Positions 800 to 25,784 of a stretch of DNA of 34,811 nt are shown here, in pieces; the first letter of the stretch is position 1; every line of letters begins with the position of its first letter. The DNA is taken from NCBI GenBank assembly GCA_026400555.1, contig JAPLOW010000042.1, forward strand, positions 1 through 34,811, read 5' to 3'. Source of the DNA: Hyphomicrobiales bacterium (lineage in GTDB: Bacteria; Pseudomonadota; Alphaproteobacteria; Rhizobiales; Beijerinckiaceae). A program made the translations under genes and the position numbers. A model generated the notes under the pieces. The model did not search any database. It saw nothing but the letters and a program-made list of their open reading frames with translations, and was not told the DNA's origin.

Positions 800-2050
800 T
801 TATCTTCCAAACAGACCACAGGCGGCGGCGCAGAGCGCCTCGGCGGAGCCGGCGGCAAAGCCGGCCGGCATGCCGTAATAGCGGTGCGCCTCGTCGACCT
901 CGTAGCCGCCGAACGCATACTCAGCAGCAGGCGGAATATAGCCCGGATTGCCCTCGGCAAAGCCCAGCACAAGGGCCGGGCGGCCGCCCAGCGCCATGCG
1001 GATCGCCAGCGCCGTCTCGGCGAAGATTTCTCCCGGCAGCCCGACGATCGCAAGGCCGGCCCAATCCAGCATGCTGACGCGGGCCGGCCATGGCGCCAGG
1101 TCGTCACATGCCGGCCCTTCGGCCCAGCGGATCCAGTGATCCAGCATCAGCGCCCGCATTGGCTCGGCCTGCAGGCGCTCACCGCGCCAGAGTCGGGCAA
1201 GCTCCTGCGGCGGCAGGCTTTCGCGCCGCGCGAGGTCAAGACTGAGATGGCAGTCGCGGGCCATGACAGTTGTGCCGCCGTCCACCGGCTGCATGGCCGC
1301 AGCCAGCGCGGCGTCGGCGATGCGCGCCCCGATCCCCTCCGCAGCGGCAAAGCTGCGCGAGCGATTGGCTGCCAGCGAGATCGAGGCCTGCGCCGAATGG
1401 CCGGTGTTCGCGTCTCCGCAGCAGCCTGTTGCAAAGATGGCCATCGCTCCGGGCCAGGCGGCTTCAAGCTGCGCCCGGACGACGTGCGGGTAGTCGGCTG
1501 TCCAGAGCCTGTTATCCGCACCAAGCACGACCGGATGGCAGGCATAGGAGGTGATGGCCGCCAGCACGCGGCCATCGAGGGCCTCGATGCGAACCACCGG
1601 CAGCGACCGGTCGAGCGGGCCATCAGCATGGCGGCGGTTGCGGGCAACATCCGGGTCCGCGCCATGACCGGTGAGGATGCGCGCCGGAACCGCCCCGGCC
1701 GCAGCCCGGTCGATGGCGCTGACGCAGGCCGCCTCGAGCCGGTCGAGATAGGACGGGTCCGCCTCGGCCCCGCCGCGCCCGACCATTGAGGCAGGCCCGC
1801 CATGGGTATGGAGCGCCGACAGCACCACCTTGTGCGCGGGCAGGCCGCAACGCTCCCGGATACGCCGGCTCATCTGCTCATGCAGGCCAAGGACATCCGC
1901 CACGACGAGGGCTGTGTCGTTGACCACGACCGCTCTCACCGTGAGCGGATCGTGCGCGCCGAGCGCTGGCTCCGTTCGGGCTCCGAAACCCGACATCGCG
2001 AGGCCTGCCGGCGGCGTGATGTCGATGCAGCAGACCCCGGCGCTGATCAT
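800..2050 (-). CDS. Neutral/alkaline ceramidase-like hydrolase
   Basis: This 416-residue protein resembles the N-terminal catalytic domain of neutral/alkaline non-lysosomal ceramidases, zinc amidases that release a fatty acid from N-acylsphingosine. Visible landmarks are the GVCCIDITPP start, the HTHGGP metal-site motif (His81, His83), NRR near 138, YACHPVVLG (His172), TADYPHV near 185 and ATGCCGDANTG near 207. It lacks the C-terminal immunoglobulin-like domain that takes true ceramidases to about 650-700 residues, and it has no signal peptide, so it is probably cytoplasmic. The ATG overlaps the nagA stop codon in an ATGA arrangement, implying translational coupling. The amino-sugar operon context makes an N-acyl amino-sugar or related amide a more likely substrate than ceramide, but this is inference. 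Family assignment is solid; substrate is unknown. Confidence 0.8.
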   Translation of the reverse strand: MISAGVCCIDITPPAGLAMSGFGARTEPALGAHDPLTVRAVVVNDTALVVADVLGLHEQMSRRIRERCGLPAHKVVLSALHTHGGPASMVGRGGAEADPSYLDRLEAACVSAIDRAAAGAVPARILTGHGADPDVARNRRHADGPLDRSLPVVRIEALDGRVLAAITSYACHPVVLGADNRLWTADYPHVVRAQLEAAWPGAMAIFATGCCGDANTGHSAQASISLAANRSRSFAAAEGIGARIADAALAAAMQPVDGGTTVMARDCHLSLDLARRESLPPQELARLWRGERLQAEPMRALMLDHWIRWAEGPACDDLAPWPARVSMLDWAGLAIVGLPGEIFAETALAIRMALGGRPALVLGFAEGNPGYIPPAAEYAFGGYEVDEAHRYYGMPAGFAAGSAEALCAAACGLFGR

Positions 2051-3210
2051 GCGGCAGGCCCGGCCGCTCTGAAGACCTGCTCTGCGGCCGCAAAGGTGGC
2101 GACGATGTCGAGAAGCTCTGATCCAGGTGTCCAGTCAAACAGGATCAGGTCCGCCGGGTGCCCGACCGCGAGCCGGCCGCGTCCTGCAGCGAAGCGCCCC
2201 GGATTGACGGTGGCCAGACTTAAGCTTTCGGCCAATGACAGACCCGCCATCCGGGCCGCGATGGCAACGTTGCGGCACAGCGGCAGCGCCGCTCCGGCCA
2301 GATAAGGCGTGCCGGCCACACTGATGCGGCCCTCGGCGCTCAGTTCGACCCTGCCCCCGACCGCCTGCTCGTAGGTTCCAGCCGGCAGACCGCCGAGTGC
2401 GGTCAGGTCGGACACCAGGACCGCGCGCTCCAGCCCCTTGGACCTCAGCATGGCCTTGAAGGTTTCCGCAGGCAGGTGAAATCCGTCGGCGATGAAGGTT
2501 GCCGTCAGGCGGTCCTCGGCCAATTGCGACCAGATCATGTTGGGATGGCGCGGCAGCATCGCCGCCGCGCCATTGCCCAGATGCGTCGACATCCGCGCGC
2601 CTGCGGTGACGGCGCCTTCGATCTGCGCCGGCGTCGCCGCGGTGTGGCCGATGGCAACATGGATGCCCTGGTCTGTGGCATGCCTGATAAAGCCGGATGC
2701 GCCTGCATGATGCGGCGACAGGGTGATCATCCCCACCAGACCGCCGGACGCCGCCTGCCATTCCGCCAGCTCTTGGACATCAGGCGGGCGCACGTGCTCT
2801 GCCGGATGCGCCCCACGGGGGCCATCCTCGGGGGCAATGAACGGACCTTCGACATGAACGAACGGGATGGCATGCGCCGCGCCTGGCGAGACAGTCCGCG
2901 CCTCGGCGATGGCGACAAGACCTGCAATCAGCGCTTCCTTCGAAGCGGTGATCAGGGTTGGCAGAAAGGTCGTCACACCGACCTTGTGCAAATGCGCCAC
3001 CAGCTCGATGACCTTGCCGGGTGTCACGGCGCCGTCATTAAGGTCGATCCCGTGAAAGCCGTTGACCTGCAGATCGACGAGACCCGGCGCGATGAAGGGC
3101 GCGTCCGGGGCCTGGCAAGACGCGATGGCGACGATCCGCCCGGCATCGATCTCGACCGTAACCCCTTCGCCGGTCGCAGGATCGCGTCCGGTCACGCGCA
3201 GGCCGGTCAC
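2047..3210 (-). CDS. nagA: N-acetylglucosamine-6-phosphate deacetylase
   Basis: This 387-residue amidohydrolase removes acetate from N-acetylglucosamine 6-phosphate to give glucosamine 6-phosphate in the cytoplasm. The N-terminal metal motif reads DLQVNG, the Gln-x-Asn variant of E. coli-type single-metal NagA rather than His-x-His. HVEGPFI (Glu121), GHTAATP (His189), STHLGNG (His210) and LVSDLTALGG (Asp268, the expected catalytic acid/base) are all present and in order. Length fits the family. The start is GTG at 3210, sharing GTGA with the stop of the upstream SIS gene, and the stop overlaps the ceramidase-like ATG. It works directly upstream of NagB in the pathway. Confidence 0.94.
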   Translation of the reverse strand: MTGLRVTGRDPATGEGVTVEIDAGRIVAIASCQAPDAPFIAPGLVDLQVNGFHGIDLNDGAVTPGKVIELVAHLHKVGVTTFLPTLITASKEALIAGLVAIAEARTVSPGAAHAIPFVHVEGPFIAPEDGPRGAHPAEHVRPPDVQELAEWQAASGGLVGMITLSPHHAGASGFIRHATDQGIHVAIGHTAATPAQIEGAVTAGARMSTHLGNGAAAMLPRHPNMIWSQLAEDRLTATFIADGFHLPAETFKAMLRSKGLERAVLVSDLTALGGLPAGTYEQAVGGRVELSAEGRISVAGTPYLAGAALPLCRNVAIAARMAGLSLAESLSLATVNPGRFAAGRGRLAVGHPADLILFDWTPGSELLDIVATFAAAEQVFRAAGPAA

Positions 3211-3980
3211 AGCCGCCGGACCCTCTGGCGGAAGCGTCCAACGAAGCGTGCATTGGCCTCGTCGCCGCCCGGCGCATTGCCTGAGCGCCAGACCGGGGGC
3301 TCGATGCCGCGGTCCGCCAGCTTCGCCACCGTCCGGATCACGAGGCAGTTGAGTGCGAAGGCGTTGGCGAAGGTCGAGGCTGCGGCAATCCGCTCGCTCA
3401 ATCCCGGTACGGTGACGATCGCGTCGCCAATGGCGACCTTGGTGTCGATGGCGATATCGACGACATCGTGCAGGTTCTGCCGGGTCGGGTGGCGGGCCGG
3501 ATGGTCTGGCGCAGTCTGCGCTGCATGCTGACGCGACGAGACCCCGATCAGAAAGCAGCCTCGCCGCCGCGCCTCGAGCGCTGCATCGATCAGGGCCGCA
3601 TTGATGCCGTAGGCGTTGACCAGGATCAGCAGATCCTCGCTGCCCAGGCCCCAGTCACTGATCACGATCTTGCCATAGCCCGGCATGCGCTCGATCGCCA
3701 TCGAACGCAGGGCGCCGCCCGAGAGCAGCGTGCCTTCGTCGAGGATGGCGCTAACATGCATCAGGCCGCCGGCGCGGAAGAATATCTCCTGAGCCGCAAG
3801 GTTCGAGTGTCCGCCCGGCCCGTAGATGTGAACCAGCCGGTCGGCCGCGATCTGGCCGGCAATCCTGTCGGCGGCGCTGTCCATCGCTGCAGCTTCCTCA
3901 GCGAGGACAGACGCCATGAGCGCGTGGACATTGGCAAGGTAGTCGGCGCACAGGGCCCCGGAATCAATCGGATCAGGCAT
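3207..3980 (-). CDS. SIS-domain sugar isomerase (UPF0309-like)
   Basis: The protein has a sugar-isomerase (SIS) domain of the UPF0309 type. The phosphosugar-binding loop is visible in YGPGGHSNLAAQEIFFRAGGL, and further family landmarks are RMPGYGK, LLILVNAYGINAA, a conserved HPARHPT segment, GDAIVTVPGL and the C-terminal GIEPPVWRS. The open frame runs upstream to 4067, but the extra 29 residues are unlike the family. ATG at 3980 gives the expected start (MPDPIDSG), about 257 residues, and overlaps the nagB stop by a few bases. The gene sits between nagB and nagA, so it probably isomerises or binds a phosphorylated amino sugar; no experimental reaction can be assigned from the sequence. Confidence 0.85.
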   Translation of the reverse strand: MPDPIDSGALCADYLANVHALMASVLAEEAAAMDSAADRIAGQIAADRLVHIYGPGGHSNLAAQEIFFRAGGLMHVSAILDEGTLLSGGALRSMAIERMPGYGKIVISDWGLGSEDLLILVNAYGINAALIDAALEARRRGCFLIGVSSRQHAAQTAPDHPARHPTRQNLHDVVDIAIDTKVAIGDAIVTVPGLSERIAAASTFANAFALNCLVIRTVAKLADRGIEPPVWRSGNAPGGDEANARFVGRFRQRVRRL

Positions 3981-4758
3981 CGGGGTCGGCCTCACGGTCG
4001 ATATACAAGGTACAGGCTGGATGCTGGCGCAGAATGCTTGCCGGACATGCAGTCGTGACCGGGCCATGGAGCGTTGCGGCGACGGCGGCGCGCTTGAGGG
4101 GTCCCGGCACGACGCAGATCATCTGTCCGGCGCGCAAAAGGCGCGGGATGGTCAAGGTCAGCGCATGGGTCGGGACCTGATCGAAGCGGACGAAGCAGCC
4201 GTCATCCACCTGCTGCCGCCGGCAGATCTCGTCGAGTTCGACGATCTTCACGTCATGGGGATCATTGAAGTCGGCAACGGGCGGATCGTTGAAGGCGATG
4301 TGACCGTTGACGCCGATGCCGAGGCAGACGATGTCGATCGGGGCCTCATCAAGCAACCGGGCATAGTGCCGCGCGGCCTCCTCCGGTGCGCCCCCGGGGA
4401 CCAGCCGGTGGACCGCCGCGAATGGCGCATGGCTGAACAGGTGCAGATCGAGCCAGCCGGCGAAGCTCTGCGGTGCGCCCGGCGCAAGCCCGAGATACTC
4501 GTCCATGGGGAAGGCCGTGACCCGGCGCCAGTCGACATCCGGCTGGCGGACCAGCGCAGCCAGAGCTTCGGCCTGGCTTGGCGCAGCGGCGAACACCATG
4601 CGAACCGCGCCCTGCACGGCGAGGAAACGGCGGATGGCCTCGGCGGTGTCGATTGCGGCGGCGAGGCCCATGTCGGCACGCGACCCGTAAGACCTCACGG
4701 CAAGACGGCCCACCTCACGCTGGTTGACCGCCAAGATCGGATTGATGAGGGCCGCCAT
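3973..4758 (-). CDS. nagB: Glucosamine-6-phosphate deaminase
   Basis: This 261-residue protein belongs to the NagB/6-phosphogluconolactonase fold and converts glucosamine 6-phosphate to fructose 6-phosphate and ammonia. MDEYLGL near 85-91 contains the proton-transfer Asp86. LGIGVNGHIAFNDPP near 146-160 carries the ring-opening His153; Asn occupies the position that is Asp in E. coli NagB, a variant common in other deaminase-like subgroups. VPGPLKRAAV and CPASILRQHP complete the C-terminal signature. ATG at 4758 has GGAG seven bases upstream. It is the first gene of the amino-sugar operon, followed by the SIS gene, nagA, the ceramidase-like gene and the ABC binding protein. An alternative name in the same family is a NagB-like isomerase. 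Confidence 0.9.
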   Translation of the reverse strand: MAALINPILAVNQREVGRLAVRSYGSRADMGLAAAIDTAEAIRRFLAVQGAVRMVFAAAPSQAEALAALVRQPDVDWRRVTAFPMDEYLGLAPGAPQSFAGWLDLHLFSHAPFAAVHRLVPGGAPEEAARHYARLLDEAPIDIVCLGIGVNGHIAFNDPPVADFNDPHDVKIVELDEICRRQQVDDGCFVRFDQVPTHALTLTIPRLLRAGQMICVVPGPLKRAAVAATLHGPVTTACPASILRQHPACTLYIDREADPDA

Positions 4759-4857: not shown

Positions 4858-5697
4858 TCAGAGCGGAGCGGCAGGCGGGCTGCGGACATGCTCCAAAGCC
4901 TCGCTGCTCCCGGTCCTTGGCCGCACCACAGTGACGATCCGCGCGAGCGCGGACCAGTCATAGTGGAAGAATTCAACAAAGGGCGTGCGGCCACCCTCAA
5001 CCGTATGGATGAGACCATCCGCAAACCATGCCACGATCGCAGCATGGCCGCCAAAGCCGTCGCCAAGTTCGCTGGTCCAGACCAACACATCGCCGGGGAC
5101 CGGAGCTGTCTGCGGCGTTTCCCAGCCGAGCCAACGCGCCTTCTCGACCAGCATGGACGCGTCCGCAATCCCCGGCTCGCCCAGACACCAGGCCACGAAA
5201 GCAGTGCTCCAGTCCTGTGGTTGGGACCGTCCTGCCGCGGCCAGGTAACGCTCGCAATAGGAGCCGCAACCGGGCGCCCCGATCTCCTGCGCGCCGTCCT
5301 CGATTTCGGCAAGGGCGGCCTGAAGGGCACGCCAGCCGGCTGCGCCGACGCCGGGCGGCCATGCGCCGAGCGCAGCTGATGGCGGCGGCAGACAGGTGTT
5401 GGGAGCTTCGAGCTTGTCCCCGAGAGCCAGCCCAAGCCCGAATCGGGTATTGGGGCCAACCACGCCATCGACCTTGAGCGGCCTGCCGTCGCCACCGATC
5501 CCCTTGACCTGGAAACGGCGCACTGCGGCTTCCATCTCGCGGTCGAACAATCCGTGCGGAGGATTGGGTGGCAGATAGCCGAGCGTGGCCAGGTCAAGGG
5601 CAAGCCTGCGTACCCCATCGCCCGACATGCCAGCTTTGAGATTTGCGGATGTGGCGACGCGTGTTCTCGGCATTTCAGACATGATGGGGGTCAACAT
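4858..5697 (-). CDS. Peptidoglycan-binding protein with CHAP/NlpC-like peptidase domain, catalytic Cys replaced by Ser
   Basis: The 279-residue protein has an N-terminal PG_binding_1 repeat (about 18-95, with GVRRLALDLATLGYLP, then AAVRRFQ and VDGVVGPNT). A C-terminal domain (about 120-265) resembles the TIGR02594-type papain-fold peptidases. In that group the catalytic centre reads W-C-A-A-F-V-x-W-C; here it reads WSTAFVAWC, so the expected nucleophile is Ser164 while the second Cys171 remains. The partner His is present in GGHAAIVAW (His218), and HTVEGG follows. No clear signal peptide is seen. ATG at 5697 has AGGAG eight bases upstream. It could be a non-catalytic wall-binding protein or use Ser; the codon is AGC, so a single sequencing error is possible but not implied. 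Confidence 0.75.
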   Translation of the reverse strand: MLTPIMSEMPRTRVATSANLKAGMSGDGVRRLALDLATLGYLPPNPPHGLFDREMEAAVRRFQVKGIGGDGRPLKVDGVVGPNTRFGLGLALGDKLEAPNTCLPPPSAALGAWPPGVGAAGWRALQAALAEIEDGAQEIGAPGCGSYCERYLAAAGRSQPQDWSTAFVAWCLGEPGIADASMLVEKARWLGWETPQTAPVPGDVLVWTSELGDGFGGHAAIVAWFADGLIHTVEGGRTPFVEFFHYDWSALARIVTVVRPRTGSSEALEHVRSPPAAPL

Positions 5698-6219: not shown

Positions 6220-6516
6220 TCAAGGCTGGTTCTCCTGATCGGTCAGCAGATCGAGCACGACCACGAAGAGCGCCGAGACCTGACGCGGCTGTCCCAGGGC
6301 GCAATGGCGGCCGAGCAGCGTGTTGACGGCCTCAAACGGAAGCGCCTCATCGGATGACAACGAGCCCGTCCGGACCATCACCTCAGTGTGATGGCTGACA
6401 TGCTCGCGCCAGGCCTGACAGGCGGCGACCTCATGTGTCAGGTCGCGTTTGCCGGCGTGCTGCGCTCCCGTCGGGGCGGCGGTCAGCAGGGAAAGAACAA
6501 GGATCAAGCCACGCAT
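6220..6516 (-). CDS. Small secreted protein, unknown function
   Basis: ATG at 6516 gives a 98-residue protein beginning with a signal peptide (MRGLILVLSLLTAAPTGAQ, probable cleavage after GAQ or near it). The mature part is about 78 residues with two Cys (ACQAW and RHCALG), which could form one disulfide in the periplasm. AGGAG is nine bases upstream of this ATG. The frame is open further upstream to 6606, but those residues look like noise and would bury the signal peptide. No family is recognised. It lies 75 bases upstream of the small membrane protein and probably shares its transcript. Confidence 0.6.
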   Translation of the reverse strand: MRGLILVLSLLTAAPTGAQHAGKRDLTHEVAACQAWREHVSHHTEVMVRTGSLSSDEALPFEAVNTLLGRHCALGQPRQVSALFVVVLDLLTDQENQP

Positions 6517-6693
6517 GGAACGGGTCTCCTGTTTCGCGAATCCGATCCAGCACAAGCGAGCGCCATGGCGTCGCACGGCCAGGGCACGTCGTGCCCGACC
6601 AAACATGATCGGAGTTCGGGTTGCGGTTTCACTCAGGCGGCGACAACAGCGTCATCCGCCGCATCACCATTCAACCGCATCCCGCCGCGCAGT

Positions 6694-6712
6694 GCGCGTG
6701 AGGAAACCGTGA
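6694..6712 (-). repeat. Short dispersed repeat, copy B
   Basis: These 19 bases match copy A exactly. The copy lies in the 229-base gap between the subtilase end and the small secreted protein start. On the minus strand it translates as GRITVSSRALRGG, but the frame is closed by TGA six codons before the ATC and has no start codon, so this copy is unlikely to be expressed as protein. Nothing else notable is seen in the gap. Confidence 0.7.
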
Positions 6713-6745
6713 TTCTGCCGTTACGTCAGGATGCGGATGCGGCGA

Positions 6746-8851
6746 TCAGCCGGCAAGAGCCTGTCCCAGGCGGACAGGGCGCTCGGCGTCCTCGGCCTGA
6801 CTCACCGGCGCCGTGAGCGGCTGGACCTGCGACAAGGGCAACGCGCTGTCCAGATGCGCAAGCGCAATCCGCCTGGCGTAAAGCGGCGCGGCCATGCTTG
6901 TGCCGGAGAGGCGGATTGCCGAGCCACTGCGTGTGCCGGCCGCGAGCGAGCCGCGCAAGGCTGTGGAGGCATCAGCCGGCATCGAGACGCCGACGGCGCC
7001 GGGAGCACCGGGAACCGGACTCAGCGGCCCAGCCGAGGCGTACGCCGTCGCGCGGCCCGTATCGGCATAATGTGACGATACGACCGTGACCTGATCGTGC
7101 GTGGCGAGGCCGTTCACGGTTCCGAAGCGACGCACGAATGCGCCCGGCGGGTTCTCGATGCGCGCCGGCGCACCGTCTGGCGTCTGGCGTTCGTCGGCCA
7201 GTTCATCAAAGTAGCTCTGCTTGCCGCCGCGCACATAGCCGAACGGGTCGTTGTCGCGCTGGATGCGGCAGGAGACCGGACCAGTCGGCGCAGCGCCTCC
7301 CGTCCGCGTCAACGACACTGACCACTGGCCCGCCGGCGCCGCCGGCAGGGTCTGGTCGCGCGGCTCGGTCGATGCCAGCGCGATGCGCGCCCGCGTCCAG
7401 GCTGCATTGAAGGGCGCAATGTCGACCTGCCCGACCACCGCGCCGGACAGCGACAGGTCGGCCGCCACAAGCGCACCGCCCGGACCAGCCGTGAACGCAA
7501 GGCTCGCGCTCGCTGTGACCGCACGGCCCTGCGGATCGGTCAAGGACAGGCGGTAGCTGGAAGGGGCGCCTGAGGCCGGCGCCCAGATCTCCAGATAGCT
7601 TGAGGTGGCGTCGTTCGGCTGCAGCCGCCACGGGATCTCGAACGGTCGCCCGACCAGGAGGTCCCCCGGCGCGATCTCTCCCAGCATGGCATCAGCCCAA
7701 CTGTTGCCCGCCGGCATGACCAGCGTCGTCGGCTTGTTCTGCGCCTTCCGCGCCGCGACCATCTGGGCGATCGCGCCTTCCAGCGGATCGGACCCGTCAT
7801 GGGGACCGCCGGTGAAGCCGTAGCTGAGGTTGATCACCAGCGGCAGCTCCGCGCTTGCGTCGCCGAGATAGGCCAGCGCAATATCATCGGCGCGCGCGAA
7901 GATGTAGTGCAACGCAGCCAGCACCGCGCCGTCCTTGCGGTAGCCGGTGGTGTCGATTGTGACCGACGCAGGCAACTGCACGGCAATGACGCGCAGCAGG
8001 TCGAGATCAGCGCCATCATTGCGCCGGCCGGCCGCGGCGTCGAGCACATGCGCGCCGTGCGAGGCGACATGGCCGAGCGTCGCCGGGGCGCCGTCCGTCT
8101 CTTCCAGCGCGCCGGCATGGTGGTAGATCGCATCCTCGTCAGGTCCGTGCGTCGCCCGCAGCGCGTCGATGTCCGTCCGCGTGAACTGCTTGCCGAACAG
8201 CAGGTTTCCATTCGTGGTCGCGGATTGCAGCCAGCAGAACTCGACGCGGGTGCTGTCACCCACCTCGTTCAACAGATTGCGGTGGGCAAAGGGGATGCCA
8301 TCATCGATCACCGCCATGACCGTCAGCCGGACGCGCGGGCGTGCGCCCGTACGGTTGACCCTGGCAAGCACGCGCGGATCGGGCGCGATCGCGGTTGAGC
8401 CACGGACCGCGGGCGAAACCGTGCCGGTCACGAGCGGCGCATTCAGCGCAAAGTTCGGCTGCGTCCGGTTGGTCGAGGCAAGGATCGGTCCCGTCAGGAT
8501 GGCAAGCTGGCGGTTTACGATGCCCGCATCCAGCGGACCCCGCCCCAGCGGATCGCCGAAATCAAGCAGCACCGGCCAGGGGACCGCAGTCCGCGCGCGA
8601 CGCGACAGACCCGTCCAGAGCACGGGCAGCAAGACGCGGCCCGTCCCACCATCGGTTGGCTGATCGGCAAGGTCTTCGGGCGCGGCGCCCGGCGGCAAAG
8701 TCATGATCGCGGGGACGAAACGGGCCACCGCGAGCGGAACGGCCAATGCCGCATAGGCGCTGCCCTGCCCATAGGTCCAGGCCTCATAGGCCCCCGTGAG
8801 CCGCGGCTCCGCGCTGCCGCCGCCGGCGGAATTGCCTCCATCGGTGATCAT
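6746..8851 (-). CDS. Subtilisin-like (S8) serine protease with large insertion
   Basis: The 701-residue protein carries the complete S8 triad: Asp183 in MAVIDDGIPFAH, His265 in ASHGAHVLDAAAG, and Ser652 in LSGTSMAAP, with the oxyanion Asn383 in MPAGNS. The stretch INLSYGFTGGPHDGSDP near 340 is the usual substrate-binding region. About 270 residues separate Asn383 from Ser652, well above the typical spacing; much of this looks beta-rich (SYRLSLTDPQGRAV and similar) and is probably an inserted domain. About 180 residues precede the catalytic Asp and no signal peptide is visible, so the enzyme may stay in the cytoplasm. AAGGAG is nine bases before ATG 8851. It is 38 bases downstream of the PAP2-fold gene in the same unit. 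The target is unknown. Confidence 0.88.
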   Translation of the reverse strand: MITDGGNSAGGGSAEPRLTGAYEAWTYGQGSAYAALAVPLAVARFVPAIMTLPPGAAPEDLADQPTDGGTGRVLLPVLWTGLSRRARTAVPWPVLLDFGDPLGRGPLDAGIVNRQLAILTGPILASTNRTQPNFALNAPLVTGTVSPAVRGSTAIAPDPRVLARVNRTGARPRVRLTVMAVIDDGIPFAHRNLLNEVGDSTRVEFCWLQSATTNGNLLFGKQFTRTDIDALRATHGPDEDAIYHHAGALEETDGAPATLGHVASHGAHVLDAAAGRRNDGADLDLLRVIAVQLPASVTIDTTGYRKDGAVLAALHYIFARADDIALAYLGDASAELPLVINLSYGFTGGPHDGSDPLEGAIAQMVAARKAQNKPTTLVMPAGNSWADAMLGEIAPGDLLVGRPFEIPWRLQPNDATSSYLEIWAPASGAPSSYRLSLTDPQGRAVTASASLAFTAGPGGALVAADLSLSGAVVGQVDIAPFNAAWTRARIALASTEPRDQTLPAAPAGQWSVSLTRTGGAAPTGPVSCRIQRDNDPFGYVRGGKQSYFDELADERQTPDGAPARIENPPGAFVRRFGTVNGLATHDQVTVVSSHYADTGRATAYASAGPLSPVPGAPGAVGVSMPADASTALRGSLAAGTRSGSAIRLSGTSMAAPLYARRIALAHLDSALPLSQVQPLTAPVSQAEDAERPVRLGQALAG

Positions 8852-8889
8852 CGCCCGGTGCTCCTTCCGTCAGGGATGCGCGCCGCAGG

Positions 8890-10035
8890 TCACAAGGCGT
8901 GCTCTTCGACGACCTTGCGCCAGAGCCAGGCAAACAGCGGGCCGGATGGCACAGCGACGCCCGTCGCGGCGCGGGTCAGCCCATGGTTGGCCGGATTGCC
9001 GGCGCCTCCCGTCACCGCGGGGATGAACTGGGTCAGCTGGAAATCGCTGTCTGTGGGATCGTAGTCGCGCGGCACGACGGGACCGCCCCGGCAGCGCGCC
9101 AGGATCAATTGGCCGACCGCCTCGCCGAGCGCAGCGCCGGCCCAGGTGTCGACCGGGAAATGCACGCCTGCGACGGTGCGGTTTACCGCGATGCGCTCCG
9201 CCTGCTTGTAGAGCAGCTTCACGAGCTTGTCCTTGACCGGGAAGCGCCGCTTTGCCGGCGGCAAGGCATCAAGGTGCTCCAGGAGCCCTGACAGGACAGT
9301 CGCGACGGCGAAAGCCTCGGTCGCATGTCCACTCGGGAACGAACTGTGTGCCGGCGTCGGAATCATCGGCAACACGCTGGCGCCGCGCTTGTCGGGCCTG
9401 AGCGCCGGCAGATGGTTCTTGGCCACCAGCACAAGATGCGAGGCGATCACCTGGGTGATGGCGATCAATTCGAATGTGCGGGGGTTGGCATCGCCGTTCA
9501 GGCCGATGATGCCCGCGAAATAGTCCGTCGGAAAGCCGACCTGTGTCAGCACCTCGGCCGCACGATCAGCGCGCTGATCACTGTAGGAGCGCAAATGCTT
9601 CAGTTGCAGGCGGAACAGGTCCGGGCTTGGCCTCTTGAGTGTGACGAGGATCTTCCGGCGATAGCTCAGCGCGAAGCCCGTGCCACCGGATGGCAGGCTG
9701 GCGCGCCAATCGAGGCTCTTGATGGTGTCTGTGAGATAGAGCGACGCCCTGACCCACGGCGCCCATTGCGCCAGATTGGCGGCCGGACCTAAGGGCATAT
9801 CATTGTAGGGGAAGACAGTGGCGCCCTGGACATCGTCCGGGTCGGCGACATGCCGGATCGACATACCGGAAACGATCAGCCCTCCGGCCAGCAGCGGATT
9901 GACGCTGCCACCCGGAATGAACGGCGCGACCCCGGTTCCGGATGTTCCGCTCGTCCCCGAGGTGCCGCTCGTGCCCGAAGTCCCGCTTGTTCCGGACGTG
10001 CCGCTCGTCCCGCTTGTCCCGCTCAAACTCGACAT
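8890..10035 (-). CDS. PAP2 / vanadium-haloperoxidase-fold protein with (GTS)9 N-terminus
   Basis: The 381-residue protein has all three acid-phosphatase/haloperoxidase motifs: K-x6-RP at 206-214, PSGH at 234-237, and NR-x5-H-x3-D at 285-296, where Asn replaces the more common Ser. His237 and His292 are the expected catalytic residues. No obvious transmembrane helices are seen, unlike membrane lipid phosphatases, so the soluble haloperoxidase-like or acid-phosphatase branch is more likely; the sequence alone does not decide between them. Residues 6-35 are nine Gly-Thr-Ser triplets plus GTG, with varied codons. AGGAGG stands just before ATG 10035. It lies 15 bases after the regulator gene and 38 before the subtilase, implying one transcript. 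Confidence 0.82.
   Translation of the reverse strand: MSSLSGTSGTSGTSGTSGTSGTSGTSGTSGTSGTGVAPFIPGGSVNPLLAGGLIVSGMSIRHVADPDDVQGATVFPYNDMPLGPAANLAQWAPWVRASLYLTDTIKSLDWRASLPSGGTGFALSYRRKILVTLKRPSPDLFRLQLKHLRSYSDQRADRAAEVLTQVGFPTDYFAGIIGLNGDANPRTFELIAITQVIASHLVLVAKNHLPALRPDKRGASVLPMIPTPAHSSFPSGHATEAFAVATVLSGLLEHLDALPPAKRRFPVKDKLVKLLYKQAERIAVNRTVAGVHFPVDTWAGAALGEAVGQLILARCRGGPVVPRDYDPTDSDFQLTQFIPAVTGGAGNPANHGLTRAATGVAVPSGPLFAWLWRKVVEEHAL
9940..10020 (-). repeat. Nine-base tandem repeat encoding Gly-Thr-Ser triplets
   Basis: About nine consecutive 9-base units encode GTS near the start of the PAP2-fold protein. The units differ at third codon positions (Gly as GGG, GGC or GGA; Ser as AGC, TCC or TCG). 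This means the array is not a fresh slippage product and the peptide appears to have been kept. Gly at every third residue is collagen-like in period, although there is no proline. Confidence 0.9.
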
Positions 10036-10050
10036 CTGTCCTCCTTCACG

Positions 10051-11694
10051 TCATGGAATTCCGGCTGCGCGGAACGCTGCGGCCGCCTTGCGGCCGAACA
10101 GGTAATTTCCGGCTGGGTGGGTGCTCAGGTAGCGCTCGACCGTGAAGTCGGGATTGACCTTGATGAGCTTTGCTCCTGCGGCACGGAGCTCGTCCCCGCG
10201 ATCGAGCTGATGCAGCGCCACGATCTTGCTTCGCAGCGACGATGTGTGCCGGTCATTCAGCTGCAGCGAACTGTCCGCGAAGGCCAGCGCATTCACATAG
10301 TCATCGTTCGCGATGTAGGCCGTTGCGCTGAGTGACTCGTAATAGTACCGGAAGGGATCGACCGGCGAGAGCCGGCGGGCTCTTTCGGTATCCTGCACGG
10401 CCAGCGCGCCCTGATCGCGGAAGGCGTGCAGCGTGCCGCGCAGAATGAGCGAAAGCGACTCATTCGGGTTGATCTGCAGAGCTGCGCTGAAGCGACGTTC
10501 CGCCGTCTGGAGGTCCTTGATCAGGTTGTTCTGCGCCAGTCCATCAATGGACAGGCACAGCGTGTTGTCGGGAGCCAGATCGAGCGCATGGGCAGCATTG
10601 TCGATGCCGCGGCGCGTGTCAGCGTCGACATCAATGCTCCAGCCGTTGAAGACACTCAAGGTGTACCACTTGGCGAGCCATGCGTAGACCTCCGGCGCGT
10701 GCGGCGCGCGGCGCGCGGCCTCCTCGAGCAACTCGCGCGAGCGCGCAAGATCACGCAGGGTTGACCGGCTCATCAGCTTCACGCCAGCAACAACCAGCCG
10801 GTGGTCCTCGATCTCTCCGACAGCGCGGCTTGCCACATGCTGCAGCGCCTCGTCGGCTATCGCCGCACCCACGGCGCCGACCAGCGTAGCGATACCGTCT
10901 TGCGCTGCTTCAAGGAATGTGGCGGCCGAGGCGGCGAACTGGCGGGTCCACAGGATGCGGCCGGTTCGAACGTCAAGGAAGTCGGCGTCGATCACCAGGT
11001 CCGCGCCACTGCGCCTCAAGCTGCCCACGACACAGTAATCCGGCTGCAGCCGATCGCGCACCTGGCGGATGTCGATAACGCCCTGCTGGGCGATCTCGCG
11101 GCAGGACAGATGCGAGATCACACCGAGAAGGCGCGAGCGGCTGAGCGAGCGGCACATTTCCTCCGCCAGCCAATCGCCGAACGTCACCTCCGCCAGATCG
11201 CTGCTCACGGCCCTGAATGGCAGAACCGCGACGAGCGGAAGGATGGCCGGTCCGCCGCGCAAGGACAGGCTGAAGAGAGCATCGAGTTGCGATGGATTCT
11301 GGCGGATGGCCGACGCCCATTGCACAAATCCGGTCTCCCGGATGTCGAGCCCTTCGAGGAAGGGCCCCAGCTTGGGATGGCCGACGAAATTGATCCGCGC
11401 CAGATCGAGCGAGACCTCGGCATTGGTGCTCGTGATCAGTTCGGAGAAACTGTCGCCCATCACGAGCTTGATGTCGGCGAGGGCACGCCTGAGGCTCTGC
11501 CGGCCGGTGTCGTAGCAGGCGACGCCCCACAGTGTCTCCTGCAGGAAGGAACGGGTCCGCCGGCCAAACGGCGCAGTCGCGAGCAAAGCAAACAGCGCCT
11601 TCTGCTTCGCGCCGGTGATTTCGAAGCCACCCGCCGCGCTCGAGCGAACCGAGCACGCGCCGAACAGATTGATGTCGAGAAGCTTGCTCTCCAT
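10051..11694 (-). CDS. SARP-type winged-helix transcriptional regulator with TolB-like and TPR regions
   Basis: ATG at 11694 (GAGGG eight bases upstream) gives about 547 residues; the frame extends five codons further to a TTG. The first ~100 residues (LLDINLFGACSV, then KQKALFALLA, LWG, RQSLRRALADIK) match the OmpR-like winged helix of SARP/BTAD regulators. A central segment beginning AVLPFRAVSSD and including DWLAEEMCRSLSR and YCVVGSLRRSGADLVIDADFLDVRTGRILW is the TolB/CadC-associated domain seen in TPR-adenylate-cyclase-like proteins. The C-terminal half (about 300-520) contains helical TPR-like repeats such as ALQINPNESLSLILRG. No membrane segment or receiver domain is seen. It is the first gene of a unit with the PAP2-fold enzyme and subtilase and probably regulates them; that is inference from position. 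Confidence 0.8.
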   Translation of the reverse strand: MESKLLDINLFGACSVRSSAAGGFEITGAKQKALFALLATAPFGRRTRSFLQETLWGVACYDTGRQSLRRALADIKLVMGDSFSELITSTNAEVSLDLARINFVGHPKLGPFLEGLDIRETGFVQWASAIRQNPSQLDALFSLSLRGGPAILPLVAVLPFRAVSSDLAEVTFGDWLAEEMCRSLSRSRLLGVISHLSCREIAQQGVIDIRQVRDRLQPDYCVVGSLRRSGADLVIDADFLDVRTGRILWTRQFAASAATFLEAAQDGIATLVGAVGAAIADEALQHVASRAVGEIEDHRLVVAGVKLMSRSTLRDLARSRELLEEAARRAPHAPEVYAWLAKWYTLSVFNGWSIDVDADTRRGIDNAAHALDLAPDNTLCLSIDGLAQNNLIKDLQTAERRFSAALQINPNESLSLILRGTLHAFRDQGALAVQDTERARRLSPVDPFRYYYESLSATAYIANDDYVNALAFADSSLQLNDRHTSSLRSKIVALHQLDRGDELRAAGAKLIKVNPDFTVERYLSTHPAGNYLFGRKAAAAFRAAGIP

Positions 11695-11793
11695 CCAGCC
11701 GACCCTCAACAGACCCCCGGAGCGCTCTTGGCCAGCAGGCCAGATTTGACTGAGCGTAAACTAGTCCCATTCCTGGCATGACGCCAAGGCGTT

Positions 11794-11809
11794 TCACGCT
11801 TTTCTCACG
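11794..11809 (+). repeat. Short dispersed repeat, copy C
   Basis: TCACGCTTTTCTCACG matches 14 of 16 bases of the minus-strand core of copies A and B and lies in the 150-base gap between the regulator and the small plus-strand ORF. In a 63-codon frame starting at 11778 it reads RRFTLFSRALRQR. Differences from copy A fall mostly at synonymous positions. No ribosome site precedes the 11778 ATG. Confidence 0.6.
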
Positions 11810-11844
11810 GGCGCTCAGGCAACGCAGCGCGTATCCTTGCGGAC

Positions 11845-12060
11845 ATGGCAAGGGGCAAGAAACGCATGCCAACAACCATGGCGGTTACGCCCTCACCACC
11901 GGTGCGGGATGTAGCCGACTTTCATCTGCGCTGGACGGAGTTCAGGCCCGTCGTCCTGTGCCTGGCTGACGACGACCATCTCACGCCCGAAGAGCGTGAC
12001 GTGCTGATCTGGCTCGTCCGCCTGGCCGACCGGGTCGGGGCGAATGACCTGACGTCGTAA
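11845..12060 (+). CDS. Small acidic protein, unknown function
   Basis: The frame gives 71 residues from ATG 11845, or 64 from ATG 11866, which has AAGGGG ten bases upstream and is my preferred start. The C-terminal half (CLADDDHLTPEERDVLIWLV, then RLADRVG) looks like a folded, charged helical region and is compositionally sensible, unlike shadow frames nearby. I do not recognise a named family. It is divergent from the regulator operon and faces the solute-binding pseudogene. It could be controlled from the same intergenic region as the regulator. Confidence 0.5.
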   Translation: MARGKKRMPTTMAVTPSPPVRDVADFHLRWTEFRPVVLCLADDDHLTPEERDVLIWLVRLADRVGANDLTS

Positions 12061-12180
12061 GATCGCTGTCGAACGGCATTCGCTTTTCCCCCTTTCGGGA
12101 GCGCAGGCCGCCTGCATCCTGACGGTGTTCGTCGGGCGCAGCGTCCAGTTCGGGGCGAGGAGGGCGTCTAGGGAAAAGTG

Positions 12181-12207
12181 CGCTCACGGACCGGCGGTCC
12201 ATGAGCG
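12181..12207 (-). terminator. Probable intrinsic terminator after the solute-binding pseudogene
   Basis: The inverted repeat is CGCTCA-c-GGACC around GGC with GGTCC-a-TGAGCG, that is 11 pairs with one mismatch. It begins eight bases after the pseudogene stop. On the minus strand the hairpin is followed by CACTTTTCCC, a short T-run. The position and stem support termination; the weak T-tract lowers confidence. Confidence 0.55.
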
Positions 12208-12215
12208 CCTGCACC

Positions 12216-13261
12216 TCAGGGCTTTTTCATCTGCAGCACATTGGGTTCCTCGTCATGGCGGGCAACAGAGGAAACCTTGTCCTTGCAACCCGCCCAGATC
12301 ACGTTGAGCGCCACGACGGGACTGGTGGCCTCGTCATTGACCGCGATCTCCATGGCCTCGATCTCCATGGCCTTGTGCTTGTCATCGTCGACGGTCGTGA
12401 TCGCCTTCTGGATGATGCCGTCGAGCTTGGCGTTCGAATACATGGTGCGGTTGTTGCCGCCGAGCGCCGTGCAGACAGCGCCGTCATGCGGCAGGCGGTC
12501 CGCCGTGCAATGCGCCGTGATGCCGAAGCCGTCGGGATCGCCGGCTTCGGTCAGCAGTTTCCTGGCGCCTTCGGGATCGAACGCCTCCGGCTGCGGCCTT
12601 GGGTGATGCCCCAGGTGCCTTCGGCAGACAGCTGACCGGCGGCGGAGCCCTGCGAATGCATCACACGCTCGACAATGGCCTGCCGGTTGATGGCCATCGA
12701 CATCGCCTTCCGGACCCGAATGTCTTTCATCGGGTTCTTGGTCATGGGCTTGCCGTCCGCGTGCGTGATCGTCGGCGACTGATCGCGGGCAAACTCCGGA
12801 TAGATCATGACGTTATACACCGGCGGCGTCTGGAAAACGGCGATGGCGGCGTTGCGCTTCATCTGCTCCACCTCGACCTAGATGATGCCCGTTATGGAGA
12901 GCATCACCCTGCCGGTCGGGCCTTGCGCGTTCGGCATCCGCTCGATCGGGTCCGTGACATCTTCGGCGGCGACATCCGCACCATTGTGGACCTTCACGCC
13001 CGGGCGCACCTTGAATTCCCAGGTGTTGTCGTCGATCAGCTTCCAGGACGTGGCAAGCGACGGGGTGGGCTCAAGCGTCTTATCGCGCGGGACCAGGGTG
13101 CCGCAGATATTGCGGAGGACCGAAACGGTGTTGCCCGTCGACCCGACATGCGGGTCAAGCGTGTCCGTGCCCGACCTCAGACCGATCGAAAGCGTCTGGG
13201 CGCTGACAGTCGTCGTGAGGGACGCTGCCAGCAGGCCAAAAGCCAGAACATATGCCTTCAG
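12216..13261 (-). pseudogene. Family 5 (peptide/nickel-type) ABC solute-binding protein pseudogene
   Basis: The remnant keeps recognisable parts of a DppA-like protein: a signal peptide (VLAFGLLAASLTTTVSA), SGTDTLDPH, TWEFKVRPGVKVHNG, DIRVRKAMSMAINRQAIVERV, PEAFDPEGARKLL and YSNAKLDGIIQKA. Lesions are clear. The expected initiator position (CTG at 13259-13261) is not ATG. An in-frame TAG lies at 12878-12880. About 90-100 residues are missing in frame just after it. One base is missing near 12600-12604, shifting the frame before PEAF. A further large segment is missing near 12455-12475. Only about 348 codons remain where the family has about 520. A 15-base tandem duplication (MEIEAMEI) lies near 12350-12380. 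No permease or ATPase genes adjoin it. Confidence 0.88.
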
Positions 13262-24200: not shown

Positions 24201-25784
24201 TCAGTTCATCGTGACCCAGCGGATCTCCAGCCAGTTGTCGGGCCTCACCGGCGTCGAGACATTCTTGCGCATGGCGTAGACCAGCACCTGATTGTAGAGC
24301 GACACGAAGAACACGTCGTCCGTGATCTTCTTGTAAAGCGCCTTCATCATCGCCTCGCGCTTCCTGGGATCCATCTCGTCACGCGCCGCCGCGATCTCCT
24401 TGTCGAGGGCCGGATCGGCGACGTTGGAGTAGTTGTAGATGCCCTCCCCCTTCTTGTCGTCGCGGGTCATCAGCATGGTCTCAAGCGAGTACATGCCGTC
24501 GAAGTAGGGGGAGTTGAAGCCCATCATGTACATCGACGTGTCGCGGTCCCAGATCTTGGGGAAGTAGCGGGCGCGGGGCATGGCGTTGAGCGTCGGCTTC
24601 AGCCCGATCTGCGACATCATCGTCGCCATCGTCTTGCAGACCTGCTCGTCATTCACGTAGCGGTCATTCGGGCAATCGAAGGTGAACCCGAAGCCGTTCG
24701 GATAGCCCGCTTCGGCGAGCAATTGCCGCGCCCTCTCGCGATTGGTGGTCACGGTCCTGTCAAGCGCCGGATCATAGCCGACATTGCCCGGCGCGAGGAT
24801 CTGCGTGGTCGGGCTCGCCAGTCCGCGCATCACCGTGCGCACGACGGCGTCGCGGTCAACGGCCAGGTTGATGGCCTGGCGGACACGAACATCCTTGAAC
24901 GGATTCCGGTCAGTGTCGGCATATTTGAGCTTGTCGCTTTTGAGGTCGAAGCCGAAGAAAATTGTGCGGAATTCGTCAACCTTCGCAATCTTGAGGTCGG
25001 CGTTCTGCTGTAGCCGCGCCACATCCTGGGCCGGAACATCGATGACGATGTCGAGTTCTCCCGACAGCAGCGCCGCGACCCGCGTCGGGTCGGACGCGAT
25101 CGGCGTCCAGACCACTTCGGTGATGTCACCATCAAGCGGACCCCAGTACTGTGGGACGCGCTGCAGCACGGTCTTCGAATCCGGCGCACGGCTGGCCAAC
25201 CTGTATGGACCGGTGCCATTGGCATTGAGGGCGGTGTAGCTCTCCTGCTTGTCCTTGAGGTTCTGCGGCGTCAGCGCATTGTTCTTCTCCGACCACAGCT
25301 TGCTCATGATCGGCACGTAGAGAAGCTTGTCCGGCAGGAGTTGATCGGGCCGCGGGCTCACGATATCGAAAGTCAGATCGTCGACCGGCGTCACTGTCAG
25401 GCCAGCGACGTAGGAGGCAAACTGCGAGGTTGCGCCCTGCGCCCGCAGGATGGTGAAGGCGACGTCAGCCGAACTCAGCGCCGAACCGTCGTGGAACTTC
25501 ACGCCCGGCCTCAGCTTGAAGCGCCATGTTGTCGGGTTCGTCTGGGTCCAGCTTTCGGCGAGCGCCGGCGCCTTGTTGAGGGCCTTGTCACGCGTGATCA
25601 GCGGCTCGTAGATCATCGACAGCAGTGTGATTGTCGTCTGGATGTTCTGCGCCTGGGGATCCATCGTACCGGCATCGGCCTGCGCGCCGATCCGCAGCGT
25701 CTTCGTCCAGGCCGGGCCCGATGACACAAGCAATCCTGTGCTCAGGATGATTCCCGCCAGGCCGCGCCATGTTGGCTTCAACAT
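24201..25784 (-). CDS. ABC peptide-type solute-binding protein (family 5)
   Basis: This 527-residue periplasmic protein starts with a signal peptide (GLAGIILSTGLLVSSGPAW, cleavage near AWTKT). Family landmarks include AGTMDPQAQNIQ, TWRFKLRPGVKFHDGS, DVRVRQAINLAVDRDAVV, ARQLLAEAGYPNGFGF and YSNVADPALDKEIAAARDE. Family 5 proteins bind di/oligopeptides, opines, nickel or related ligands. AAAGGAG is an excellent ribosome site seven bases before ATG 25784, consistent with the high output needed for a binding protein. It follows the dppC-like gene after 55 bases. The hydantoinase genes downstream suggest a cyclic amide or modified amino acid as ligand, an inference. Confidence 0.92.
   Translation of the reverse strand: MLKPTWRGLAGIILSTGLLVSSGPAWTKTLRIGAQADAGTMDPQAQNIQTTITLLSMIYEPLITRDKALNKAPALAESWTQTNPTTWRFKLRPGVKFHDGSALSSADVAFTILRAQGATSQFASYVAGLTVTPVDDLTFDIVSPRPDQLLPDKLLYVPIMSKLWSEKNNALTPQNLKDKQESYTALNANGTGPYRLASRAPDSKTVLQRVPQYWGPLDGDITEVVWTPIASDPTRVAALLSGELDIVIDVPAQDVARLQQNADLKIAKVDEFRTIFFGFDLKSDKLKYADTDRNPFKDVRVRQAINLAVDRDAVVRTVMRGLASPTTQILAPGNVGYDPALDRTVTTNRERARQLLAEAGYPNGFGFTFDCPNDRYVNDEQVCKTMATMMSQIGLKPTLNAMPRARYFPKIWDRDTSMYMMGFNSPYFDGMYSLETMLMTRDDKKGEGIYNYSNVADPALDKEIAAARDEMDPRKREAMMKALYKKITDDVFFVSLYNQVLVYAMRKNVSTPVRPDNWLEIRWVTMN

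Follow-up and report, generated by a model that had tools for sequence, protein, structure and literature searches.

Several described systems come close to parts of the locus analysed here. Class A acid phosphatases, such as the 217-residue enzyme 7f17 of Pseudomonas aeruginosa, and vanadium haloperoxidases both belong to the PAP2 superfamily, and the Csp germination proteases of Clostridia (CspA, CspB and CspC) are subtilases that act on a partner zymogen. Bacterial gasdermins are protease-gated effectors whose genes lie beside interchangeable protease genes, and multi-copy peptide precursors, with precedents in the fungal alpha-factor precursors and in the enzyme-fused precursors of ribosomally synthesised and post-translationally modified peptides such as borosins, repeat an identical peptide within one protein and are served by a separate protease. 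Likenesses to all of these meet in a three-gene unit that we analysed in a 34,811-nucleotide stretch of DNA (the window; contig JAPLOW010000042.1) from a draft genome (3.8 Mb, 85% complete) of a Hyphomicrobiales bacterium. It encodes a TPR-containing regulator, a PAP2-fold, phosphatase-like protein that opens with a uniform tandem repeat (the head), and an S8 subtilase (Table 1).

This cassette also departs from each precedent. Its PAP2 protein shares the fold and the three catalytic motifs of the acid phosphatases but, at 381 residues, has an extra N-terminal part compared with 7f17, carries the uniform head and shows no signal peptide; it has the superfamily and motifs in common with the vanadium haloperoxidases, along with sequence-profile matches to bromoperoxidases, but its structural match to them (E 9e-3 and above) is weaker than that to the acid phosphatases. 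The subtilase resembles the Csp proteases in its core, in having an N-terminal extension and in the beta-rich stretch inserted between residues Asn383 and Ser652 (window numbering), but is ~14% identical to them and lies in a putative operon with PAP2 and TPR regulator genes. Where gasdermin loci hold a gasdermin, the cassette has a PAP2 enzyme with a repeat head, and its only defence-related match is a weak one of the regulator. Compared with the peptide precursors, the head has no spacers and units of 2-4 residues, the PAP2 active site is conserved and an export signal was not seen.

The preliminary description of the window had proposed the three genes as an undescribed unit, to be abandoned if they did not occur together elsewhere, and had called for a check of co-occurrence, gene order and extra partners. 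Loci were sought with the PAP2 protein alone, so that neighbours played no part in choosing them. Relatives with E < 1e-30 were found in 18 of 297 genomes of the same order (19 loci, window included), and the best 80 of at least 502 relatives from a profile scan of named genomes brought the set to 99 loci. Both the regulator and the subtilase lie beside PAP2 in 97 of these, the remaining two (L057 and L130) being truncated by contig ends, so that the trio recurs with conserved order and the candidate unit stands. The regulator is on the PAP2 strand in 92/97 loci and the subtilase in 96/97, and most gaps are of at most 60 bases; many loci are closely related, with 95 of them forming 36 groups at 60% PAP2 identity. 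Subtilase relatives in the same order sit at the same places as the PAP2 relatives, and in five more genomes a subtilase relative turned up with no such PAP2 gene visible; one of these (L074 in genome G122) sits at the end of a contig and four are weak. Twenty fetched same-order regions, two of which are pieces of one genome and one of which has the subtilase at a contig end, carry the same trio with mostly differing flanks; no fourth gene was common to all loci. Identity matrices of the three proteins correlate (PAP2-subtilase r 0.95, PAP2-regulator 0.87, subtilase-regulator 0.86; null maxima <0.2), which is partly due to shared ancestry.

Most named hosts are Alphaproteobacteria; the others include Hydrogenophaga, further Comamonadaceae and one gammaproteobacterial metagenome-assembled genome. 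A PAP2 relative at L075 is 97% identical to the window protein. One record, titled Oceanobacillus sp. HTM 045 (L152), is a contig of 69% GC; Oceanobacillus genomes usually lie far below this value, and contamination or mislabelling is likely. Across the phylum, 21 of 398 genomes matched PAP2 with E no worse than 1e-15, a count that takes in weak matches. Plasmid records matched in 104 of 72,556 cases, many merely as generic PAP2, and seven of eight plasmid regions with 4-kb flanks hold PAP2, regulator and S8 genes (five Csp-like, two of another S8 type), the eighth being broken. On the Phaeobacter inhibens M647 plasmid (L309), the annotated PAP2 gene is shorter than those of sister strains, and a hypothetical protein is annotated after it in place of the S8 peptidase, a possible sign of a decaying cassette. 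No phage record matched, and the 14 matches among viral contigs were all short or weak PAP2. The three genes travel together as a conserved, patchily distributed cassette, which we take to be regulatory.

The feature that best defines the cassette is the head, which the preliminary description had rightly reported as low-complexity while overlooking its role as the defining feature. A perfect tandem repeat opens 97 of the 99 PAP2 open reading frames (ORFs), with period 3 in 86 and period 4 in 11. Of the two exceptions, L080 has an imperfect nine-residue repeat. At the second, L116 (6575-7870), the head appears, by eye, as a repeat in another frame, which seems to reflect a frameshift or sequencing error near the repeat. 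The unit varies between lineages: GGF occurs at 18 loci, GGI at 13, GGL at 11, GGV at 8 and GGA at 6, with SGT, NGL, TAM, HAS, QGL, SGGA and SGGL among the others. In a gene-call census of the window and 118 further loci, scored for at least five copies near the start (within 250 residues for PAP2 and 120 for other genes), repeats were found in 99/102 PAP2 proteins, 0/102 regulators, 0/96 subtilases and 2/901 other genes, both of the latter PAKKAA-type.

The DNA beneath these repeats is far less uniform than the protein. In the window all ten DNA units of the head are distinct, and within the 97 heads mean synonymous divergence (pS) is 0.727 against a mean nonsynonymous divergence (pN) of 0.047 (pN/pS 0.065), with pS exceeding pN in 97/97; the boundary rule of at least two matching residues per unit lowers pN somewhat and leaves the synonymous divergence unaffected. 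Synonymous sites are thus near saturation while the protein repeat is kept, indicating that uniformity is selected and residue identity is not; judged by these substitutions, the head is under selection for uniformity. Adjacent DNA units are identical in 49 of 796 cases, where shuffled codons would give 42.7, so fresh slippage does not account for the uniform repeat. Even so, proteins whose PAP2 bodies are 88-94% identical can differ in unit (SGGL/SGGI, GGI/GGV, GGF/GGL, GGI/GGT and SGV/TGL). Recently duplicated DNA units are present in the heads of L147, L153 and L117, and recent re-expansion, seen in a few heads (L147, L153), is a plausible route to such a switch. Among Phaeobacter plasmids, eleven regions have (NSF) heads of 4, 5 or 6 copies, the copy number being five in nine of these regions. 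In six genomes with two headed copies the units differ within each genome, two of these heads being weak.

Heads also go with the regulator. All 18 loci fetched from the phylum search, several of them from the same organisms as the named set, have a head and a regulator-family gene nearby, and 13 have the Csp-like subtilase; their units include (DAR)n, (GNT)n, (TQQ)n, (AGR)n, (GNQ)n and the dipeptide (NK)n. In a further search that included plasmids, 13 of 14 regulator-adjacent PAP2 genes were headed (L282 and L285 weakly), while none of the 11 judged PAP2 relatives without a regulator carries a head. The relatives without a regulator (12 found) are more distant; three of the 11 (L289, L296 and L297) have a flank shortened by a contig end, the N-terminus of the broken twelfth (L314) was left unjudged, and several start with a signal-peptide-like sequence. 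L314 itself is a second, broken PAP2 relative (3617-4758) on a Bosea sp. NBC_00550 plasmid that also carries an intact cassette. No head was found beside regulator-family genes lacking PAP2 among the genes called in 36 of 40 fetched regions (L259 had no gene calls and L272 four only), and the other four regions, with PAP2 (L260-L263), were headed. Neighbours of subtilase relatives outside the cassette were headless in L315, L316, L317 and L320, L318 and L319 having no gene calls; in the one genome searched (G418), (GNT)3 occurs in the PAP2 head only.

The PAP2 body has the hallmarks of its superfamily. Pfam PAP2 matches at E=1.6e-11, the motifs K206-x6-R213-P, PSGH237 and R286-x5-H292-x3-D296 are present, and K206, R213, H237, R286, H292 and D296 are identical in 63/63 aligned sequences, the Gly of PSGH being variable (Ala in 36, Gly in 27); motifs and fold together place the protein in the PAP2 superfamily. 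The AlphaFold2 model has a mean predicted local distance difference test score (pLDDT) of 86.9, with most body blocks >90 and residues 1-42, which include the head, <50. In Foldseek the class A acid phosphatases come first (E 8e-6; best 7f17), followed by the B. subtilis PgpB-type phosphatase, LpxE, glucose-6-phosphatase and haloperoxidases, so that of the earlier PAP2/haloperoxidase label the fold holds and the nearer kinship is with phosphatases.

The window subtilase matches Pfam Peptidase_S8 (E=2.6e-6), and D183, H265, N383 and S652 are present in 58/58 aligned sequences, as expected of that family. Its AlphaFold2 model (mean pLDDT 89.5) matches CspA, CspB and CspC in Foldseek at E=2e-19 to 2e-21 with target TM scores of 0.58-0.68, while the NCBIfam Csp models are not reached (19.5 bits against a cut-off of 1250, and 17.1 against 675); the predicted likeness to Csp is thus structural only. 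The trio as first described, with a subtilase, holds for the main branch and misses that the protease varies between branches: loci lacking the Csp-like subtilase usually have a different protease fold downstream. A second S8 type accompanies (NK)n or (NR)n heads at L208, L209, L300 and L312, and a Peptidase_A4 protein accompanies GNT, GNA and SNT heads in five genomes (L205, the same locus as L262, and L207, L260, L261 and L280). A strict lock-and-key match between unit and subtilase was also considered, using 17 sister pairs that differ in unit and 17 that share it, drawn by PAP2 body identity. It was not supported by these pairs or by the cleft segments discussed below: when inspected, the columns that vary together with the unit did not point specifically to the predicted cleft, and different-unit pairs were more divergent overall.

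The regulators consist of a common FlgO/TolB-like and TPR body bearing one of two kinds of N-terminus. The window protein had been described as a cytosolic, TPR-linked SARP regulator. TPR linkage is borne out, with a sub-threshold Pfam TPR_19 match at residues 315-342, and the N-terminus is SARP-like by alignment, one plasmid relative being annotated SARP; its SARP-like part has no Pfam match, however, and the swapping of the N-terminal domain between branches had been missed. Pfam finds no DNA-binding match in the window regulator and, among the 19 first-set relatives, Trans_reg_C just once, FlgO in 6, TPR models in up to 13 and Guanylate_cyc in 8; NCBIfam HilA/EilA matches the window protein at 4.2e-10 (38.6 bits against a 589 cut-off, best stretch residues 155-387). 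Two alignment-built profiles, applied to 132 regulators of which some come from the same organisms, typed 94 as SARP-like and 32 as class III cyclase and left 6 untyped. A Crp-family cyclic-nucleotide-binding gene lies near the cassette in 15 loci, mostly of Comamonadaceae (L129, L130, L131, L132, L135, L136, L146, L147, L148, L153, L154, L068, L071, L195 and L199), and 14/14 typed regulators at such loci are of the cyclase type, a pattern compatible with a sensor that acts either directly on transcription or by way of a cyclic nucleotide and Crp.

We tentatively interpret the cassette as a protease-controlled phosphatase with the head as its handle. The disordered head would offer many sites to be gripped and trimmed by the partner protease, and trimming would switch the PAP2 enzyme on or off, or free it from a bound state. 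The TPR and FlgO/TolB-like parts of the regulator would sense a cue, for which the head or pieces of it are candidates. Control of the operon would run through the SARP-like DNA-binding domain in some lineages and through a cyclic nucleotide and the Crp-family regulator in others; uniformity would be useful because repeated equivalent sites make a graded, register-independent substrate. Consistent with this interpretation are the co-located partners with their correlated matrices, the varied families that fill the protease's place, the tracking of the regulator by the head, the divergence within heads (pS 0.73 against pN 0.05) and the Csp-like build of the subtilase. A maturation pair, in which the protease acts on the PAP2 protein, was among the earlier suggestions and is our best guess, though unproven. 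It is also possible that the cassette reads uniformity and not sequence, joining an arbitrary repeated unit and an enzyme to a replaceable protease and signalling output.

Several observations weigh against a protease-controlled phosphatase. Cleavage of the PAP2 protein is itself only predicted. Alignment to aspergillopepsin II shows the active-site Gln retained in the five A4 proteins and, in 5/5, another Gln at the position of the Glu that is catalytic in that enzyme; lacking the Gln and Glu pair of glutamic peptidases, these partners may bind without cutting. No recognised protease lies near the headed, regulator-adjacent PAP2 genes of L204, L282 and L285 (the latter two with weak heads), and only an M24 peptidase, possibly unrelated to the cassette, follows PAP2 in L281; L290 has a regulator-family gene and no head. 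The subtilase segments predicted to line the cleft, picked by homology to subtilisin, show little or no change across GGF/GGL, GGI/GGV, GGI/GGT, SGV/TGL and SGGL/SGGI, and this constancy across recent unit switches disfavours a strict lock and key or substrate code.

The head might instead serve homotypic assembly, a uniform repeat self-associating by poly-glycine-II-like or other period-3 packing, or as a condensate, so that inactive enzyme is stored until the protease dissolves the store. Uniformity kept while the residue changes freely, period 3 in 86/97 repeats and Gly in nearly all units would suit this, as would the differing units of paired headed copies in six genomes (two heads weak), which insulation would need; differing units within one genome are, however, also expected by chance, and units of period 4 or 2, without Gly (TAM, HAS) or charged (DAR, NK, AGR) resist a single packing. 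The head is unstructured in AlphaFold2, although a monomer prediction is blind to assembly, and on balance we find assembly rather unlikely. Still less likely is a degron pair, in which a harmful PAP2 enzyme is removed by the protease from an initiation site in the head as an antitoxin-like safeguard: the nearly constant co-encoding of enzyme and protease, also on plasmids (7/8 wide-flank regions), and the replaceable protease type fit, but a degron needs no uniformity, nothing indicates that the PAP2 enzyme is toxic, and toxin-antitoxin and defence models all stay below cut-off.

A multi-copy precursor, whose head the protease would cut into identical signal or product peptides sensed by the TPR regulator, accounts for the identical copies, the lineage-specific unit, the near-saturated synonymous sites and the adjacent protease and regulator. 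We nonetheless consider it distinctly improbable, given units of 2-4 residues with no spacer or processing site between them, no export signal seen by crude hydropathy in nearly all relatives, a conserved active site that a mere carrier would not need, and TPR regulators 93% identical that accompany different units. That the genes are ordinary neighbours, placed together by chance or shared ancestry, with the head a slippage-prone tail of no function, is hardly credible: low-complexity tails are generally common and some heads (L147, L153 and L117) have recently duplicated DNA units, but the counts largely contradict it, with the trio at 97/99 loci (95 of them in 36 groups at 60% identity) and, where slippage predicts identical DNA units, 49/796 seen against 42.7 expected and a pN/pS of 0.065.

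The suggestion that the trio is a defence cassette found no support, PADLOC giving no family for PAP2 or the subtilase and merely a weak Mem_04 match (E=0.034) for the regulator. No PHROGs family matched, and no NCBIfam model reached its cut-off, nor did any toxin-antitoxin or defence model. Defence genes were not seen in the cassette (flanks were not scanned for them), and the sole annotated family recurring in the flanks is Crp-like. Among the titles and opening lines of abstracts of open-access papers, subscription journals and preprints lying outside the search, we recognised no description of the cassette or of a uniform arbitrary head; in PMC5006271, 'PAP2' belongs to a sample name and is irrelevant here. 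The folds are known, and it is their combination with a uniform arbitrary head for which that literature yielded no description.

Uniformity under strong purifying selection, with a unit that can change at ~90% enzyme identity, fits neither motif recognition nor ordinary low-complexity drift. If the protease or regulator does read uniformity, this would be a new kind of molecular recognition, and if the head drives assembly, the cassettes would form a natural library of short repeat peptides. Cultured Alphaproteobacteria such as Marivita, Bosea, Bradyrhizobium and Phaeobacter carry it often enough for study. Natural unit switches are ready-made experiments, and the headless, regulator-less relatives serve as ready-made controls.

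Table 1. Coordinates of the cassette and associated signals in the window.
Feature	Position	Strand	Remarks
Regulator ORF	10051..11694	-	547 residues; SARP/HilA-like N-terminus, FlgO/TolB-like middle, TPR C-terminus
Gap, regulator/PAP2	10036..10050	-	15 bases; ribosome-binding-like AAGGAGG preceding the PAP2 start, read by eye
PAP2-fold phosphatase-like ORF	8890..10035	-	381 residues; signal peptide not seen; Pfam, AlphaFold2, Foldseek
Head of PAP2 protein, (SGT)x10	9934..10023	-	Residues 5-34; mixed synonymous codons; predicted disordered
Catalytic motifs K-x6-RP, PSGH, R-x5-H-x3-D	9148..9420	-	Residues 206-296 of PAP2 protein
Gap, PAP2/subtilase	8852..8889	-	38 bases
Csp-like S8 subtilase ORF	6746..8851	-	701 residues; signal peptide not seen; triad and oxyanion Asn intact
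Terminator-like hairpin upstream of regulator	12208-12180	-	13 pairs, T-rich tail

The three minus-strand ORFs and the exact lengths of both gaps agree with the preliminary description, and spacing and conservation point to a single transcript. On the minus strand, a scan of 6400-12300 found no terminator-like site between the three genes and detected no sigma-70-like promoter; the total of terminator-like sites in this interval is not above that of shuffled sequences, and the upstream hairpin may insulate the cassette. By crude hydropathy all three proteins lack an N-terminal hydrophobic segment (best 19-residue means near the N-termini 0.16, 0.27 and 0.83), in agreement with the earlier view of the subtilase as having no signal peptide.

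Just upstream of the cassette, 12551-12871 (and 12216-12443) resembles a broken second copy of a transporter protein, the ORF at 12551-12862 clustering with the peptide-binding transporter protein at 24201-25784. A run of genes at 2047-4758 looks like one for using amino sugars, with NagA-like and SIS-like members recognised by eye and Glucosamine_iso matched in Pfam. It is followed by a CHAP/peptidoglycan-binding protein at 4858-5697 (Pfam).

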